IMG/VR virus record: IMGVR_UViG_3300036791_000233
Location: 1 to 23,439 of that record
Source of the DNA: a virus
Direction: 5' to 3' (one strand)
DNA: 23,439 bases
The first letter of the stretch is position 1. Every line of letters starts with the position of its first letter. Shown piece by piece: positions 9,100-23,433 of this stretch. The position numbers and the translations under genes were made by a program. The notes beneath the pieces are model-generated. The model was not told the origin of the DNA and did not search any database. It was given only the letters and a program-made list of their open reading frames with translations.

Positions 9100-9369
9100 A
9101 TGACCACAGTAAACAACGCGCCGAAGCTCACCTCTGCTAATACCCACGAACTGGCAAGCGGGAACATTGTCCATTGCCACGGCTCGCGCTTTGAATTGAC
9201 CACGCGTAACAGTGCGGCAGATGGTTGCGTCTGGTTTCTCACGAAGTATTTAGGCGCAGTCACCTACGCGGACGGCAGTGCGGCGCATGAAATCATGCCG
9301 AAGCACTGGCGCGATGATTGGACAGTGCAAGGCAACGAGCTTGCGCGTTGGACGGTAGAAAGCGCATGA
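9100..9369 (+). CDS. Hypothetical protein, 89 aa
   Basis: An 89-residue strand-rich protein starting MTTVNNAPKLTSANTHELAS, with GNIVHCHGSRFEL and a C-terminal HWRDDWTVQGNELARW. The GGAG at 9087-9090 is 9 bases before this ATG and 3 before an ATG two codons upstream (9094), so I prefer 9100. The pattern 'G.IVHCHG.RF.L' resembles short phage proteins of unknown role. It overlaps the next gene by 4 bases. Confidence 0.6.
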   Translation: MTTVNNAPKLTSANTHELASGNIVHCHGSRFELTTRNSAADGCVWFLTKYLGAVTYADGSAAHEIMPKHWRDDWTVQGNELARWTVESA

Positions 9370-9644
9370 GCAAACGCAACGTAGGCGAGCAATTCGCCAA
9401 GGCCTTGGAGCTACTCGAAGAGCGCGAGCGCAAGCTTGCCCGCGCTTTCAACGCATGGAACAAAACCCGCAACATGGTGCGCGCGCTGCAAAAGCGCATC
9501 GACCAAGAAACCGCCGCCGACATGGAGGCGCGCGCGGCGGGGAAATTCCCCGGGAAGTGCATCATGTGCAAGCGCGAGTGCGACGGCTCGGAAGTGAACT
9601 TCTTAGGCGTGTGCGAGAAGTGCGCGCCGCCGCCCATTATCTAG
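9366..9644 (+). CDS. Coiled-coil plus zinc-ribbon protein, 92 aa
   Basis: Residues 5-55 form a long charged helix (ALELLEERERKLARAFNAWN ... LQKRIDQETAADMEARAAG), followed by a four-Cys ribbon CIMCKRECDG...GVCEKC near the C-terminus. This is a common design in small phage proteins that bind nucleic acid or a host complex, but no family name can be given. It starts in an ATGA overlap with the upstream gene and is followed 24 bases later by a strong terminator, so the two form a short operon. Confidence 0.65.
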   Translation: MSKRNVGEQFAKALELLEERERKLARAFNAWNKTRNMVRALQKRIDQETAADMEARAAGKFPGKCIMCKRECDGSEVNFLGVCEKCAPPPII

Positions 9645-9668
9645 GGCGCTAAGCGCAAGCAATCCCAA

Positions 9669-9690
9669 GGGGCCGCAAGGCCCCTTTTTT
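9669..9690 (+). terminator. Intrinsic terminator, plus strand
   Basis: GGGGCC-GCAA-GGCCCC hairpin (6-bp GC stem, GNRA-type tetraloop) followed by six T residues. It closes the 9100-9644 operon and abuts the 3' end of the convergent PP-loop gene. Confidence 0.92.
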
Positions 9691-10474
9691 ATACCCCGCA
9701 AAGCCCTTCGCATTCGTTGTTAAATAAATCCAATTGGCCCATATCCACGGCATTGCGAAAATCTACCTCGCCAAGCGGTTGCATTGAGCGATGCAAATAG
9801 GTTTGCCCCTTTACTCCCGGTAGCCCGCTGCGTATGGCTTTATCAAACGCGATAGCCTTTTGCCATTCCGGCGAATCGCTTACGCGCATCTCACGCCAAC
9901 GTGAGTCATGCGTATACGGGCAAAAATAACACGCGCTCTTTTGTGGTTCTGGATAGCCGTGTGCGCCCATCCAATTAAGGCAATCTTGACGCGATATATT
10001 GTTATCGATTAGCGGGAATTCATTAATAATATATTTGACGCGTGATGGCTTCATGCGTAGCGCTTCATCGGTTGAAATACCAATAAGCATGGTGACCCGC
10101 TTTAGTCCATGCGTGCGCATTAATTCTTTAGCCTTGCGGCGCAGTGGATTTAATTTGTAATCCCCAGTGCATTGCCGCCACAACATGCCGCCATCACTGT
10201 TACTGCTGCTAACGAAAAACGGGGCTTGCCCTACGCGGCGGCGTTTTGGATCATTAACGGATTGCAGTATGTCGCGCTCCAATGAGCCATGCGTGACGCG
10301 AAAGACGGGAAAGGGTAGTAGCTTCTCAAGCCAATCAAGCCACGCATAAACGTGCTGCGGCTCGGCTTGCGTGTCGGCAAAGATAGCCGCGTGCGGCGCT
10401 TCAATTTCACCGCGCGCCATCATTAACGCTAAGGTCGAAGATTGCACGCCCGCGCCGAGCGATAAAATCCTCAT
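9689..10474 (-). CDS. PP-loop ATPase, PAPS-reductase-like family
   Basis: A 261-residue protein from MRILSLGAGVQSSTLALMMA, where SLGAGVQSS (5-13) is a PP-loop (SGGxDS-like) for ATP pyrophosphate chemistry. Then come FADTQAEP (32-39), a TGGS-like THGSL (61-65), QCTGDYKLNP (101-110) and ACYFCPYTH (181-189), with more Cys at 165, 255 and 259. The paired Cys and 'CT..YK..P' suit the PAPS-reductase/DndC-like branch, which handles sulfur or activates a carbonyl by adenylation. An earlier ATG (10522) would overlap the previous gene by 52 bases; the chosen start makes an ATGA overlap with it. Probably works with the TGT-like neighbour. Confidence 0.8.
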   Translation of the reverse strand: MRILSLGAGVQSSTLALMMARGEIEAPHAAIFADTQAEPQHVYAWLDWLEKLLPFPVFRVTHGSLERDILQSVNDPKRRRVGQAPFFVSSSNSDGGMLWRQCTGDYKLNPLRRKAKELMRTHGLKRVTMLIGISTDEALRMKPSRVKYIINEFPLIDNNISRQDCLNWMGAHGYPEPQKSACYFCPYTHDSRWREMRVSDSPEWQKAIAFDKAIRSGLPGVKGQTYLHRSMQPLGEVDFRNAVDMGQLDLFNNECEGLCGV

Positions 10475-11211
10475 CCGAATAACTCTAGGTTTTGTTGCAC
10501 GCCCGATGACTCGCCCGACCAACGCGCCGCGCTGGCGTGCATTTCGATACGATCAATCATAATCGCCGCACGCGCCGCCCGTGAGGTAGGCGCATAAGGG
10601 CCTAACCAACGGCTATCTATGCCAACATTGCGCGCAACGTTGCAACTATCGGCGCTTGAAAAGGGGATATGTGCGAATAGTACCGGGTCCAACATTCTGA
10701 GCCCATGCAATTTAGTATCGGGCGTGCCGTCTTTGTCGCATGCGTGTTGCATCGCTTCGGCCATGCGTGCCCACCATTGCGGGGTAGCAATCTGCGCGTA
10801 TTGCCCGGAAGAGCCCAAACATACGCGCGGGAATGCTTCGCACAAGTTTTCCAGGCGCTGCATTGATTCGTTCATATGCCATACAGGCGCGCTGTAATCT
10901 TGCCAAGGCCAATCGTTTATGAGCTTGTCGTTTTCTTCTTCGGTGCCATCGATAACATCGGGAATCACGCAAAAATCTACGGCGGGATGGGCGCGCCATT
11001 TCTCGCAAAAATCTAGATAACCCGCAAAGTTGTAATCCTCATCGGCGCGCCACGCGCTAAAGGCGCCGTTATCAATCGCAATCGATTGACAGATTTCGGC
11101 CGCTTCGGCGATCTGCAAGGGATGCGCATAGCTCACCATGCAATGCCGCCCGCGCATACACTTGAGCATGTCTAACGTAGGGGTTAGCGGCAAGCCGTGG
11201 TAATGAATCAA
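10471..11211 (-). CDS. tRNA-guanine transglycosylase (TGT)/DpdA-like protein
   Basis: A 246-residue protein with a TIM-barrel-like run of motifs: SIAIDNGAFSAW (43-54), FCVIPDVID (80-88), PRVCLGSSGQY (128-138), LHGLRMLDP (168-176) and FSSADSCNVARN (184-195). The series 'DNGAF', 'PDV..', 'LG..G', 'HGL', 'S.DS' parallels phage and archaeal-type queuine tRNA-ribosyltransferase relatives, including DpdA, which insert 7-deazaguanines into DNA or tRNA. It is shorter than full-length TGT and may be an atypical member. Its stop overlaps the start of the PP-loop gene, so the two are translationally coupled. No preQ0 synthesis genes are visible in the window. Confidence 0.6.
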   Translation of the reverse strand: MIHYHGLPLTPTLDMLKCMRGRHCMVSYAHPLQIAEAAEICQSIAIDNGAFSAWRADEDYNFAGYLDFCEKWRAHPAVDFCVIPDVIDGTEEENDKLINDWPWQDYSAPVWHMNESMQRLENLCEAFPRVCLGSSGQYAQIATPQWWARMAEAMQHACDKDGTPDTKLHGLRMLDPVLFAHIPFSSADSCNVARNVGIDSRWLGPYAPTSRAARAAIMIDRIEMHASAARWSGESSGVQQNLELFG

Positions 11212-11409
11212 CTAGCCCTGCCTTGGCGGCCAATTGATTAGCTCGGATAACCTAACGTGCATGCGCTCGGCGCTATCGCGATTGCGCGGGCGTGCGAAGT
11301 AATTATCATCGGTGAGTATGCGTGATAGCAGCGCTTCGGATTCGCGCAAGCATGCGCGCAAGATTTCTATTTCGTTGCGCGCATTTGTAATGTCTAGCGG
11401 CGCACTCAT
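11212..11409 (-). CDS. Small helical hypothetical protein, 65 aa
   Basis: A 65-residue protein starting MSAPLDITNARNEIEILRAC, with one long helix (EIEILRACLRESEALLSRIL) and a polar C-terminus. The 'L.E.EALL..I' helix suggests a coiled-coil partner protein. It abuts the TGT-like gene and overlaps the preceding membrane protein by 4 bases. No family recognised. Confidence 0.55.
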   Translation of the reverse strand: MSAPLDITNARNEIEILRACLRESEALLSRILTDDNYFARPRNRDSAERMHVRLSELINWPPRQG

Positions 11410-15814: not shown

Positions 15815-16064
15815 CAAAGAATGGGATAACAACATGCGCGGCGTGTTGTTCGTGAACGATAAAAAAGGCATCCCAACGCGCGCCGACTACACCGGTACTT
15901 GCGAAATAAATCACGTTGAATATTGGATGGATGTTTGGCTAGCCAAATCCCAATACCCCGACCTTTTTTCTAACGTGCGCTTTAGGGTGAAAGGCGTCCG
16001 CGCGTCGCGCCCGCAAGAATCGGTAACGCCACCGCTCGATTTTGATGATGAGATCCCCTTTTAA
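15807..16064 (+). CDS. Small ssDNA-binding-like protein with SSB-type acidic tail, 85 aa
   Basis: MANKEWDNNMRGVLFVNDKK starts an OB-like stretch; 'ADYTGTCEINHVEYWMDVWL' and 'RFRVKGVRA' are strand-rich. The tail LDFDDEIPF matches the conserved SSB C-terminal peptide (D-F-D-D-(D/E)-I-P-F) that binds SSB partner proteins. Small proteins of this layout ('WDN..RG.LF.N.+K....PDY.G...+.G.EYW...W') accompany phage recombination genes. An upstream GTG (15801) is two codons earlier. It overlaps yqaJ by 8 bases and touches the next gene at a shared base. The precise function is inferred. Confidence 0.65.
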   Translation: MANKEWDNNMRGVLFVNDKKGIPTRADYTGTCEINHVEYWMDVWLAKSQYPDLFSNVRFRVKGVRASRPQESVTPPLDFDDEIPF

Positions 16065-16954
16065 TGGCTACCAAAATAAATGGGTCGGCGAATCCCAAAA
16101 TTATAAAATTCCCAAACCCGGCGAAAATCTACGGCACCGATCAAAATATCGTGGCCGAAGTCATGACCATTACGCCGAGCGATGCGACGGCGTGGCTTCG
16201 CTGCAATAAAAATAACCGCCCGCTTCGCAAGCGGCACATAGAATTTTTAGCAAGCGAAATCACTAACGGCAATTGGCAGATTAACGGGCAAGCCATCGTC
16301 ATCGCCGATGATGAGCAAATCTTGGACGGGCAACACCGCTTGTTTGCCATCATTGAGGCGGGCAAGCCGATTAAATCGATGGTTGTTTATGGCATCACGC
16401 CCGATGCCTTTAAGACTATCGACACGGGCGCGGTGCGCACGGGCGCCGATGCGCTTTGCTTGTACTTCAAAGACGTTCCGAACTACATAGTTAAAGCCGC
16501 CGCTACAGCGGTGCAATGGTGCAACCGCTTAGAGCGCGGGCAAATCCACTACGCCGAAAAATTATCGAATACCGATGTAATCGAATATGTGAATCATCAT
16601 AGGTCGCTACTGCAATGTGCCGAAACCTTGGCGAGCTACCCAACCGAAGCACGCCCGCTATCCCTTGGGCCCGGCACCGCGCTTTATGAAATGTTCCAAC
16701 GCAAAAACCATGAGCAAGCCGAAAACTTTATGCGCCGCTTTTACACCGGGGAAGGCTTAACCCGGTCCGATGGGGAATATATCTTGCGCGCGGCATTCAT
16801 GAAGGATTCCGAAAAGGTCGCCAAATACCCGCAAGCGATCCGCGTGCGCATGATCATTAAGGGTTGGAACTGGTACCGGCGCGGCAACAACACCGCTACG
16901 CGCCAAGTCGTCAGCGTAACGCCCGCCGATGAACAAAAGATTAGGATTTATTAG
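16064..16954 (+). CDS. DGQHR/ParB-like phage protein
   Basis: A 296-residue protein. Residues 85-110 (QILDGQHRLFAIIEAGKPIK, then SMVVYGI) contain the DGQHR motif of ParB/Srx-like and DndB-related folds, followed by 'AFKTIDTGAVRTGADAL' (115-131), a conserved extension in this phage group. The rest is helical, with a basic C-terminus (WNWYRRGNN). Members are common in phages and integrative elements next to recombination genes and are presumed DNA-interacting, possibly ATP-dependent nucleases; the role is unproven. Good coupling to the upstream gene (1-base overlap) and 2 bases to the next. Confidence 0.75.
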   Translation: MATKINGSANPKIIKFPNPAKIYGTDQNIVAEVMTITPSDATAWLRCNKNNRPLRKRHIEFLASEITNGNWQINGQAIVIADDEQILDGQHRLFAIIEAGKPIKSMVVYGITPDAFKTIDTGAVRTGADALCLYFKDVPNYIVKAAATAVQWCNRLERGQIHYAEKLSNTDVIEYVNHHRSLLQCAETLASYPTEARPLSLGPGTALYEMFQRKNHEQAENFMRRFYTGEGLTRSDGEYILRAAFMKDSEKVAKYPQAIRVRMIIKGWNWYRRGNNTATRQVVSVTPADEQKIRIY

Positions 16955-18647: not shown

Positions 18648-18950
18648 ATGAAATGCCCGACCTTCCGCTGCCCGGAATCTTTGCCCGTACATGGCCGAAA
18701 AAAATACTGTCAGAAATGCCGCCAATCAATGTACTACTGGGATAAGAAGACGCCCGCCGAGCTAATCGACGCACGCTATAAGCGCGAAAAAAGCTTATTT
18801 CGAATTACCAACTTTGAAGACCGGAAAGCCGACCAAGACTTAGCGTCATTTAGGAAAGAGAAACGCGACAACAAAACAATGAGGGTTGCATATGGCAGAA
18901 AACGCCCCCCAACAACTACCCGAAGGCGTGACGCTAACGCGAGCCGGTAA
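18648..18950 (+). CDS. Zinc-finger protein heading the csrA operon, 100 aa
   Basis: Start ATG with AAGG a few bases upstream. The N-terminal treble-clef-like cluster CPTFRCPESLPVHGRKKYCQ followed by KCRQSMYYW (residues 3-29) is a Cys4-type finger. Then comes a charged helical region (ELIDARYKREKSLFRI; DLASFRKEKRDN) and an Arg-rich tail. The last 20 codons overlap the next gene in another frame, so the tail may be under weak constraint. A DNA- or RNA-binding regulator is likely from the cluster and basic charge; no named family. Confidence 0.6.
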   Translation: MKCPTFRCPESLPVHGRKKYCQKCRQSMYYWDKKTPAELIDARYKREKSLFRITNFEDRKADQDLASFRKEKRDNKTMRVAYGRKRPPTTTRRRDANASR

Positions 18951-19824
18951 GCACGCCTATACCCATGCCTTCAAGCTAAAGGTCATTGAGCGCATTAAGG
19001 GCGGGGAAACCGCGCGCGCCGTAGGCGAAGAGCTAGGCGTACACCCGACGCACGTTAGGCAATGGGTACGCGGTAAGGGCATGGACGTAGATAAACCGGA
19101 AACGGGCTTTATCGTCGGGCCATCGGGTAATAAGGTTTATTCGGATGCCTACAAAAAAGAAGCCGTCGCGCGGCTCATGTCGGGCGAGATTAATAGCGCC
19201 GATCTAGGCCGCGAGCTAGATGTACGCCCAAGCATTCTTTCGGCGTGGCGCCGAATGATTGGCGAAGGCCGCGAGCCCTACCACAAAACGCGCGACCCGG
19301 CGAAGCACAAGGGCGGGCGAAACTATAAAAAAGAATGGGCGCGGCGCAATGAATTGATGCAACAAAAAAAGGCGAAAATGACAACCCAAAAAAAGGATGT
19401 AAAGAGGGGAAGCTATACAGCGCTCTACAAGGTGGCGGCGCTCAAGCGATTGAAGGCGGGAGAAACGGCGAAACAAGTAGCAGACAGCTTAGGTATCGAC
19501 ATTTCGAACGTTTACAATTGGAGTAGCGACAAGAATAAACAACATGCGTGGCGAGCGGCGGCGGGGCGCAAAGGCGGGTTAATGAACAAAGGAAAGCCAA
19601 AAAAGAATGGAGGCGGCGCGCGCATCGGGGTTAGTTACGGCGACAGTAAGAAGCAAGTCGAAGAAACGACGGCGGTATTATCCACGCGCATGCGCGATGC
19701 GGTAGCACTCTTGAAGCACGCGAAGGCGGCGGCTTATGCGGATTTACAAAACGGAGTGATTAAAGAATTCAACGAAATGCATCTATTAGTCTTGCAGGCC
19801 TTGCGTACACTTACAGGGGAATAG
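18892..19824 (+). CDS. Protein with three tandem HTH modules (IS3 OrfA-like), 310 aa
   Basis: Three copies of one module are visible: [20 protein letters not shown] (23-42) continuing to [27 protein letters not shown] (83-102) continuing to LSAWRRM; and [20 protein letters not shown] (175-194) continuing to VYNWSSD. Each has the 'Y...+K..A+.R+..GE.....LG+....V..W' pattern of the helix-turn-helix in IS3/transposase OrfA and HTH_28 domains. There is no DDE catalytic domain. A basic linker (139-175) separates modules 2 and 3, and a helical C-terminus (258-308) may mediate oligomerisation. ATG 18892 has GAGGG 7 bases upstream. Followed 22 bases later by csrA. Confidence 0.75.
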
Positions 19825-19846: not shown

Positions 19847-20038
19847 ATGTTGATTCTTACAAGGCGGGTCGGCGAGTCGTTAATGATTGGCGACACGGTG
19901 ACGGTAACGATTCTTGACGTGAGGGGCAATCAGGTGCGCGTAGGCATTGCGGCGCCGAAAACTCTTGAAGTACATCGGGAAGAAATCTACCAGAAGATAC
20001 ACCCTGACTATGTGTCGCCCGATTGGGGTAACCGCTAG
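19847..20038 (+). CDS. csrA: CsrA/RsmA-type RNA-binding regulator
   Basis: 63 residues: [34 protein letters not shown], then [17 protein letters not shown]. It matches CsrA along its full length, including Leu4 and Arg6 in strand 1 and Arg44 (VHREEI) in strand 5, the two residues needed for RNA binding. CsrA dimers bind GGA in mRNA leaders and control translation and stability of host genes for carbon storage, motility and biofilm. A GGGGGG ribosome binding site precedes the ATG. It ends overlapping the tail of the convergent membrane protein gene. Phage copies are known and could reprogram host mRNA. This one looks fully functional. Confidence 0.95.
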
Positions 20039-20410: not shown

Positions 20411-21544
20411 TTAAGCTCCATAGAAACCCAAGGCTTTTAACGTCGCGACGATTTGCGCGACAACATTTGATGTTTGCACTAGCGTTGCCGTAGCGCCCGG
20501 ATAATTCGCAATGACGGCGTTACCGGTCGGGGTGCCCCAACCGTTGAGCGGCGCGGCGCCAGCGGCGCCATTGAAAGCAATCACGCCGCCCGCTCCGAGC
20601 GATAATCGATCCGAGATTCCTAGCGTTTGGCTTGACGCAAAATGTAACGCCCCATCGGCGCGAGAATTACCCAAAACCCAATTTTGTACGCCGAAGGTAT
20701 CGAAGTTTATCTGTGCATTGCCTGCCGTGGTCGTGTTAATGCCTAACCGTGAATCGCCCGCACCGCTGCCGACAATCGTCATAGAGCGATCATTTACGCC
20801 AGCGGGCGTAATACTATTAACGATTAGCGACACGCCGCCAGTCGGCGCGTTAATGGTTACATTACCCGCCGCGCTAATTACTTGCACGGCGGTGAAACTT
20901 GTCCCCAGCACTAATGGTATTGGGCCATTAGTAAGAACACCCGCGCTTGTCCCGATTGGGCCGCCCGGTACGAATGCGCCGGTAAATCCGCTCCCGCTCA
21001 TGCCAACAATAAAAGTAGCGGTTGCGTTTTGGATGTCTATGACTATGCCAGCGGCAGGGCCTAAACTTTGGTTTTGCAGGACTAAGCCGCCAGCAACGGC
21101 ATTGGCTACAACGTGCGATTGCAGCGCCGACGTGCCGCTAGTGGTATCCGCATTAATTAGTATGCCTTGCTGCCCGGAGGCAGCGTTAACAGTCAAGGCA
21201 AGGCCGCTAGTCGGTGGGCCTATGGTGACATTGCCCGCCGCCGATACCGTGATACCAAAGGGCAAATTGTTGCCCGCGATTTGATCCACCGACCAAATGA
21301 GATTACCTAGCGCATCTTGTAGCAGTAACTTATAAGTTAGGCCTTGCACTAGCCATACATTCGCTTCGCCGCGCGAATTTAAAATTATGGGGTTAGTGTT
21401 CGGCGTCGTTTGCGTCGAATCAACATAGGTCGCTTGCGGCGTCGTGGTGCCCGCTATGTAGGTAAAAAGTTTCCCGCCGCTTAACGCGGTGCCGTCATTC
21501 GCGACGGCGCGAAAGACCGGTGATGGTGCTAGCTGTACGCTCAT
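20411..21544 (-). CDS. Tail fibre / receptor-binding-like protein, 377 aa
   Basis: The N-terminal domain (about 10-65: GGKLFTYIAGTTTPQATYVD ... NPIILNSRGEANVWL) recurs in the adjacent 630-residue protein and is a common phage tail fibre attachment module. The middle is beta-rich with an internal repeat, ITVSAAGNVTIGPPTSGLAL (98-117) and VISAAGNVTINAPTGGVSLI (222-241), typical of a trimeric fibre shaft. The tip ends in PGATATLVQTSNVVAQIVAT with a C-terminal GFYGA. It overlaps the previous gene by 4 bases. It probably binds a host surface receptor. No peptidase or chaperone domain seen. Confidence 0.75.
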   Translation of the reverse strand: MSVQLAPSPVFRAVANDGTALSGGKLFTYIAGTTTPQATYVDSTQTTPNTNPIILNSRGEANVWLVQGLTYKLLLQDALGNLIWSVDQIAGNNLPFGITVSAAGNVTIGPPTSGLALTVNAASGQQGILINADTTSGTSALQSHVVANAVAGGLVLQNQSLGPAAGIVIDIQNATATFIVGMSGSGFTGAFVPGGPIGTSAGVLTNGPIPLVLGTSFTAVQVISAAGNVTINAPTGGVSLIVNSITPAGVNDRSMTIVGSGAGDSRLGINTTTAGNAQINFDTFGVQNWVLGNSRADGALHFASSQTLGISDRLSLGAGGVIAFNGAAGAAPLNGWGTPTGNAVIANYPGATATLVQTSNVVAQIVATLKALGFYGA

Positions 21545-23433
21545 ACGGAGTAAGAGAAGACAACGATTCCGACATTGCCGTTACGCGCGCCGCTCAAAGC
21601 GCTAGAGCCCGTGGCGCCGTTGTTACCGCCATCGTTAATGCCCGGGATACCCAAGCCGCCCGCGCCGCCAGCAAAGCCGGTGGACGCACTGCCGCTATTG
21701 CCGTTGGTGTTGGTGACGTTGCCACCCGTGGCGGGCGTGCCGCCCGGGCCGCCTATGGGGTTAATGCTGCCGTTGCCGCCCGTGGTCCCCCCGGGCGCGT
21801 TCATCGTGGTTATAGCCATCGTGCCGCTAGACGCGCTAGACGCGGCGCCATTGATACCGCCGCCGACACCGGCAACGCCCACGGTAAAGTTAAGCGTGTT
21901 GCCGCCTTGCCCGGTGACCGAGTAGGACGACAAGCAATAGGCACCCGAGCCGCCGCCGCCGCCGCCTTGCGTGGCGCCATCACCTAAGCCGCCGCCGCCC
22001 GAGCCGCCCCACACTTCAAGTGTGAGCGTGTTGTAACCCACCGGCACCGTTTCAACGAACGTGCCCGGGGTAATGTAGATATGCGTGATAGTGGTCGATG
22101 ACGTGCCGGTGCTAACCAACGTCATTTGCAAATAGCTACCGGCGCGCAGCGTGGTATTACTCCCGTTTAGCGTGTTTTGTGCCCACGAAATACCAAACGT
22201 GCCAGCGCTACCGACTAGCAGCGAACCCTTGAACATGGCTTCGTTGCTATTCGCGGTAATCGAAACATTGGCAAAAGGCACAACGGTTGCGTAAAAGCTT
22301 TGCCCGTTCGGGCCATAGGCAACGCCGTTGACAAACCCTAAACCGATGGCTGGGCCCGCGCCGCGCGAGTCAAGCGCCGTGCCGTCGTTGGTGAATTTAA
22401 AACCCGCGCCCGCTACGACAGAATCGAAGAGCAAATAAAGTTCGTAGACGTAACGCCCTATTGCAAGCGTGGGCGTTTGCAGATCCGGGTCGGGCGTTAG
22501 TGTCGTGGTGCTTACGCGCGTGGTGTCGCCAGGTTTTACCTTCGACGTTGAAACGCTGCCCGTGGTGCTTTGGTAGAAGTTAACTTTCCAATTTCCATTA
22601 CCAAGGTATTGCGCTAGCAGTGCATCGCCCGGTTGCGTGATGATGCTAGCGGCGCCCGGTAGATTTAAGCTCACGGCGTTGTAGGTAAGCGTTAGCGAAC
22701 CGGTAAAGCGGACGTGATAGATAGGCGCGGTTATGTTCGCGGAATTGCCAAAACTAGTTATGGTTGTCGTGCCGGTGATTTGCACCACGTGCGCGGCGGC
22801 GGTGCCGAGATCGGTAACGGTGGCCGATGCAATCGGGGTTTCTTGTCCGAATGTGCCTATCGTTACGCCGCTAAATGAACCAATGGAAATTAGTTGAAAA
22901 TTCCCGTTGTAATACATGACTTGGGTTGTTTGGCCCGCCGTGATTTGTCCGGCGCCCAACGGCGTGCCGTTGATATTTACAATCGGGATGGGCCCAAGCC
23001 CGTTAACGTTTAGCGTCGATGGCCCGGAATTGGTGAAGCTCGGAATAAAATAGATGACTTCGCCATTCGCGTAGGAAGTGAACGGCGTGGCGAAATTCAA
23101 GACATAGGCATTAGCTGCCCCGGTGTCGACGCCACCAAAAAGGGTTAGCAGTTGAGAGTTAAAAATCTGGTCGACTGTCCAAAGCGTATTACCCGCCGCG
23201 TCTTCCAAAATAAATTTGTAGCCGACGTTAGGCAAAATCCATACGTTTGCCTCACCCCGAGAATTCAAAATGACCGGGTTAGTGTTAGTCGTCCCGCCCG
23301 TGTTATCGGTGTAAGTAGCAATCGGGGTAGACGTGCCAGCGCTGTAGGTGAAAAGCTGCCCCCCGGCTAGGGGCGCGCCGCCGTTCGCAAATGCGACGAA
23401 TTTGGCATTTGGCGAAAGAAAGGCGGTTGTCAT
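21541..23433 (-). CDS. Tail fibre-like protein with glycine-rich adhesin tip, 630 aa
   Basis: Starts at ATG 23433, six bases from the window end. Residues 1-90 carry the shared module (GGQLFTYSAGTSTPIATYTD ... NPVILNSRGEANVWI). The shaft is Thr/Ser/Gly-rich beta sequence with a strand-rich core near 140-290. The last 168 residues (463-630) are glycine-rich (VWGGSGGGGLGDG, GGPGGTPATGGN, AGGAGGLGIPG), ending NGNVGIVVFSYS. This ending is seen in polyglycine-helix adhesin tips such as T-even gp38-like adhesins. Likely the main receptor-binding protein, first of the tail genes here. It overlaps the 377-residue gene by 4 bases. Confidence 0.75.
   Translation of the reverse strand: MTTAFLSPNAKFVAFANGGAPLAGGQLFTYSAGTSTPIATYTDNTGGTTNTNPVILNSRGEANVWILPNVGYKFILEDAAGNTLWTVDQIFNSQLLTLFGGVDTGAANAYVLNFATPFTSYANGEVIYFIPSFTNSGPSTLNVNGLGPIPIVNINGTPLGAGQITAGQTTQVMYYNGNFQLISIGSFSGVTIGTFGQETPIASATVTDLGTAAAHVVQITGTTTITSFGNSANITAPIYHVRFTGSLTLTYNAVSLNLPGAASIITQPGDALLAQYLGNGNWKVNFYQSTTGSVSTSKVKPGDTTRVSTTTLTPDPDLQTPTLAIGRYVYELYLLFDSVVAGAGFKFTNDGTALDSRGAGPAIGLGFVNGVAYGPNGQSFYATVVPFANVSITANSNEAMFKGSLLVGSAGTFGISWAQNTLNGSNTTLRAGSYLQMTLVSTGTSSTTITHIYITPGTFVETVPVGYNTLTLEVWGGSGGGGLGDGATQGGGGGGSGAYCLSSYSVTGQGGNTLNFTVGVAGVGGGINGAASSASSGTMAITTMNAPGGTTGGNGSINPIGGPGGTPATGGNVTNTNGNSGSASTGFAGGAGGLGIPGINDGGNNGATGSSALSGARNGNVGIVVFSYSV

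Follow-up and report, generated by a model that had tools for sequence, protein, structure and literature searches.

The closest described counterparts of the locus presented here are DpdA of phage 9g, whose histidine at position 196 tells DpdA from DpdA2, which lacks it (PMC6884629), and a described group of phages that encode DpdA and no preQ0 genes (PMC6884629). Host preQ0 has been proposed earlier as the supply for such a lone DpdA, and in the DNA of Salmonella phage 7-11, a member of the DpdA-only group, 50 dADG per 10^6 nt have been reported, with dPreQ0 not above the limit (PMC6884629). On the side of the PP-loop proteins, a 2024 study of Thermus phages has described a gene of this kind as an insert differing between related phages, with homologs in defence systems (PMC11437467). 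Both kinds of gene, the lone dpdA and the PAPS-reductase-like PP-loop gene, were known before; here they stand together in a swap slot.

The window analyzed in this work comprises 23,439 bases and is the whole of its source record, a virus contig that is probably a fragment of a phage genome. The phage resembles the temperate type, as an integrase and the recombination genes Erf and YqaJ are present; among isolated phages no near relative of the record was found. A sequence-only reading had singled out a TGT/DpdA-like gene and a PP-loop gene at 9689-11211, overlapping by four bases and closing the early operon, and had suggested that they form a self-contained two-gene system of base modification. 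The arrangement proved to be exactly as read; the proposed unity of the pair found no good support when relatives of each gene were surveyed.

An exchangeable slot at the end of the early operon

Both genes lie on the minus strand. The dpdA-like gene (10471-11211) encodes 246 aa from a TTG start, and its relatives share this starting residue (MIHYHG). The PAPS-reductase-like PP-loop gene (9689-10474) encodes 261 aa, its ATG start lying inside the dpdA stop codon, with the four bases ATGA (10474-10471, minus strand, as read from the sequence) shared by the two; this overlap suggests coupled translation. A longer, TTG-started version of the PP-loop ORF, reaching to 10522, was rejected, since the starts of homologs fall on the ATG at 10474 or close to it. 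Upstream in the same early operon an ORF of 65 aa (11212-11409, minus strand) ends with a stop codon that abuts the TTG start of dpdA, and on the other side of the pair lie a convergent ORF (9318-9644, plus strand) and a terminator-like hairpin (9667-9686, plus strand). As the sequence-only reading had noted, preQ0 genes are missing: QueC, QueD, QueE, YhhQ and FolE were not found in the 23,439-base record, which is probably a fragment, so that their absence from the whole phage is not proven by it.

One sister phage (G002), 78-96% identical in the aligned stretches, aligns on both sides of the pair and keeps both flanking ORFs as well as a similar hairpin. Positions 9630-11212 do not align, and in their place the sister phage has about 690 other bases with another small ORF. 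The slot holds exactly two genes, dpdA and the PP-loop gene, which are present or absent together; the hairpin bounds them on the left, and on the other side they end at the upstream ORF's stop codon. This comparison with one sister phage shows joint exchange, not joint function.

Several other features of the window were recorded. At 19847-20035 on the plus strand the phage encodes a homolog of CsrA, a translation regulator of host type (PF02599, 1e-24). The product of 18886-19821 (plus strand) has three transposase-type HTH stretches (HTH_Tnp_1) in an unusual repeat layout and is possibly a small terminase or a regulator, and that of 16064-16951 (plus strand), a phrog_5931 protein with a DGQHR motif (ILDGQHRLFA), is reminiscent of DndB/ParB-like proteins and has no Pfam or PADLOC match. 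Two tail-fibre-like ORFs within 20411-23433 (minus strand) have similar N-termini (FxAxAxxGxxLxGGxLFTYxAGT) and are apparently paralogs.

The TGT-like protein and the neighbours of its relatives

Neither of the two proteins is recognized by Pfam or NCBIfam, and the assignment of the TGT-like one was built on its relatives. It matches family phrog_887 far beyond chance (3.7e-68), with related proteins in 106 records of isolated phages and, as a lower bound, at over 500 confirmed sites in IMG/VR. The TGT motifs that had been picked out from the single sequence vary little or not at all among 46 relatives (D47 N48 G49 A50, P84 D85, G133, H169 G170 L171, S186 D188 S189), and the active-site aspartates, named beforehand as a check, are kept: D47, D85 and D188 are invariant, and the first and last of them align with the D72 and D216 motifs of 9g DpdA. 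When the profile of the 46 relatives was aligned with 9g DpdA (hhalign), an E-value of 1.7e-10 over 148 columns was obtained, with the DNGAF/DSGAF, HG and (A/C)DS motifs colinear and the invariant H169 placed on the HG histidine of 9g DpdA, residue 196. Because of this profile match, the colinear motifs, the His196 equivalent and the invariant aspartates we call the protein DpdA; judged by its sequence it belongs to the DpdA family, 9g type, in line with what had been read initially, and for the predicted enzyme homology gives good support to a base-exchange mechanism. Structure prediction is compatible with the assignment: the AF2 model (pLDDT 87.5) matches generic TIM barrels, among which Foldseek placed archaeosine TGT modestly at rank 21 (TM 0.55). 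A PDB sequence search with the DpdA profile gave nothing useful.

The neighbours of dpdA were surveyed in up to 5 kb of flank at 200 further viral and prophage loci, amounting to 166 non-redundant groups at 95% identity. With models that had been seeded from dpdA neighbours and then searched over whole flanks and control loci, QueC, QueD, QueE or YhhQ was found in 27 of the 166 groups; in 26 of these 27 (26/166 overall) such a gene lies within 100 bp of dpdA, often overlapping. None of the four genes was found at 80 RusA control loci, and at VRR-NUC control loci they occurred only where dpdA was also present. This adjacency, set against the controls, ties the dpdA family to 7-deazaguanine. Frequently a relative has only one or two of QueD, QueE, QueC and YhhQ beside it; these partial sets suggest that phages top up part of the host pathway only, and they offer a testable pattern. 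Genes for the preQ0 transporter YhhQ/VUT stand beside dpdA in phages and prophages at nine loci (L091, L092, L171, L315, L317, L330, L385, L394 and L397), mostly directly adjacent; YhhQ has earlier been found not to correlate with any phage group (PMC6884629). The protein of Salmonella phage 7-11 is itself a relative (34.6% identity).

An enzyme of this superfamily might act on host tRNA instead of DNA, with a queuosine change at wobble positions favouring phage translation. Homology to the TGT superfamily is in keeping with such a target, as are the mere traces of dADG in phage 7-11 DNA, but the validated enzyme nearest to the protein, that of phage 9g, works on DNA, no direct profile match of the family to E. 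coli TGT was detected, and DNA methyltransferase genes are frequent neighbours of the dpdA relatives. We consider a tRNA target unlikely.

The PP-loop protein

The second protein matches phrog_424, again far beyond chance (6.6e-40). It carries the PP-loop motif SLGAGVQSS and a C-terminal ECEGxCGV tail, and the PAPS-reductase-like cysteine motifs pointed out in the sequence-only reading are borne out by five cysteines (102, 182, 185, 255 and 259) invariant in 39 relatives. The PADLOC profile of SspD matches most of the protein (2.9e-18), a match common to all 39 relatives. The AF2 model (pLDDT 91.6) finds its best fold matches in PAPS reductases and weaker ones in the sulfur enzymes LarE and TtuA. 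QueC is absent among the 50 PDB fold matches listed, and the profile of the family has no similarity to E. coli QueC (hhalign probability 0.3, 33 columns). The protein is PAPS-reductase-like and not QueC; it represents a family common in phages that would handle ATP and probably sulfur too, and a putative role in sulfur chemistry is plausible. A PDB sequence search with the profile gave one sub-threshold match, a 'PptA' entry (21fy, E 0.037), on which a literature search found no relevant paper.

A complete Ssp or Dnd system was considered and rejected, as the partner genes (desulfurase, nickase, ATPase) were not recognized: in the ten other proteins scanned from the record, a probable fragment, PADLOC found no match to SspA, SspB, SspC or Dnd partners.

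The gene could also be a true CysH-like auxiliary metabolic gene for sulfate assimilation, placed beside dpdA by chance and having no role with nucleic acids. Its PHROG name and the fold match to CysH speak for this, and reports of cysH among viral auxiliary genes are common. Against it, no Pfam family scores above the cut-off and PAPS_reduct does not recognize the protein, the profile match to E. coli CysH is weak (E 0.004 over 61 columns), and the family has extra invariant cysteines, an SspD match in all members and C5-cytosine methyltransferase genes (called from sequence motifs) nearby in 9 of 48 lineages. A role in sulfate assimilation is therefore doubtful. Proteins of this family are often labelled 'cysH' in viromes, and the SspD match and the methyltransferase neighbours argue that the label may be wrong.

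Linkage of the two genes and the proposed reading

Were the two genes partners, DpdA would insert a 7-deazaguanine derived from the host, which the PP-loop enzyme would then alter, for example by ATP activation and the addition of sulfur or nitrogen, in a two-gene hypermodification. The ATGA overlap and the exchange of the pair as one unit agree with this, and the association is not unique. In a Cupriavidus prophage (L293, 4015-5760) a PAPS-reductase-like PP-loop gene of another subfamily shares an ATGA overlap with dpdA in reversed order; such genes also adjoin dpdA at L151, where QueC and QueE are present too, and at L361. A viral contig (L083, 1-2990) carries in a row QueC, a divergent DpdA and a PP-loop gene of the same type as in the window, which may likewise be counted in favour of a joint pathway; this divergent DpdA had no match among isolated phages.

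The survey of relatives points the other way. In the flanks or records covered, relatives of either gene mostly stand without the other, and a single lineage out of the 39 PP-loop records contained a DpdA. Of the 166 dpdA groups, 22 have a PP-loop gene of some subfamily in the flanks, and only in 3 of the 22 is it adjacent to dpdA; this is near random placement, whereas the Que/YhhQ genes are adjacent in nearly every group that has them. Broad flank counts of PP-loop genes are biased upward, as their models came from dpdA loci. At the level of whole records of at least 10 kb, counted with the neutral model phrog_424, a gene of this type is present in 9 of 59 records holding dpdA and in 1 of 46 RusA control records. 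This apparent enrichment (Fisher p 0.02) was dropped once VRR-NUC records of the same phage type, sampled regardless of dpdA, showed the gene in 9 of 50; the difference from the RusA records reflects phage type. Recurrent adjacency of dpdA and the PP-loop gene above background was not found, and comparison with hundreds of relatives gave no good sign of the two as one dedicated system. The self-contained pair suggested by the sequence-only reading is thus not supported, and a joint pathway appears quite improbable. Equally improbable is a minimal cassette in which DpdA would insert host preQ0 and the SspD-like PP-loop enzyme would turn this, once in the DNA, into a new base such as a sulfur-bearing 7-deazaguanine.

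Very improbable, too, is a replacement of QueC, in which the PP-loop protein would turn CDG into preQ0 for use by DpdA. In its favour, QueC belongs to the PP-loop enzymes, the viral fold list includes some phage QueC models, ranked under the PAPS reductases, and at one QueE-dpdA locus (L112) a PP-loop gene lies 1.2 kb away with no QueC found in the contig. Against it, besides the missing profile and fold similarity, the cysteine pattern is that of a PAPS-reductase-like family, a genuine QueC accompanies the PP-loop gene at L083 and L151, and nearly all loci of the family are without another 7-deazaguanine gene in their flanks.

We favour, with a probability of about 0.56, the reading in which a lone DpdA inserts a host-made 7-deazaguanine that protects the phage DNA, and the PP-loop enzyme next to it acts independently. 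DpdA, a predicted TIM-barrel base-exchange enzyme, would remove guanine at selected sites and insert a 7-deazaguanine, preQ0 or a derivative of it. As the phage fragment is without preQ0 genes, the host's queuosine pathway would supply the precursor, and the level of modification would therefore probably be low. Protection of the phage DNA from restriction is the likely purpose. The PP-loop protein would be a PAPS-reductase-like ATP pyrophosphatase, most likely acting on its own account on a nucleic acid, by adenylation or thiolation, and not standing in for QueC. That the two genes share an exchangeable slot may be explained by the slot collecting host-evasion genes.

Set beside known systems, the PP-loop protein shares its superfamily with QueC and differs from it in cysteine pattern, fold neighbours and the lack of a profile match. 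It resembles SspD of the SspABCD system of DNA phosphorothioation over most of its length, whereas no companion of that system was recognized in the record proteins scanned. Its nearest likeness is to the phrog_424 proteins of Thermus phage P23-77 and Pelagibacter phage HTVC034P, with full-length homology, 44-47% identity, the same cysteines and a GxCGV-type C-terminal tail, although neither of these phages has dpdA beside its PP-loop gene. The TGT-like protein places the locus with the DpdA-only group of Salmonella phage 7-11 (PMC6884629), to whose protein it is homologous and with which it shares the lack of preQ0 genes beside dpdA. Unlike DpdA of phage 9g (317 aa), it has 246 aa and a TTG start and is followed by an overlapping PP-loop gene; the two have in common the colinear motifs, the equivalent of His196 and the active-site aspartates.
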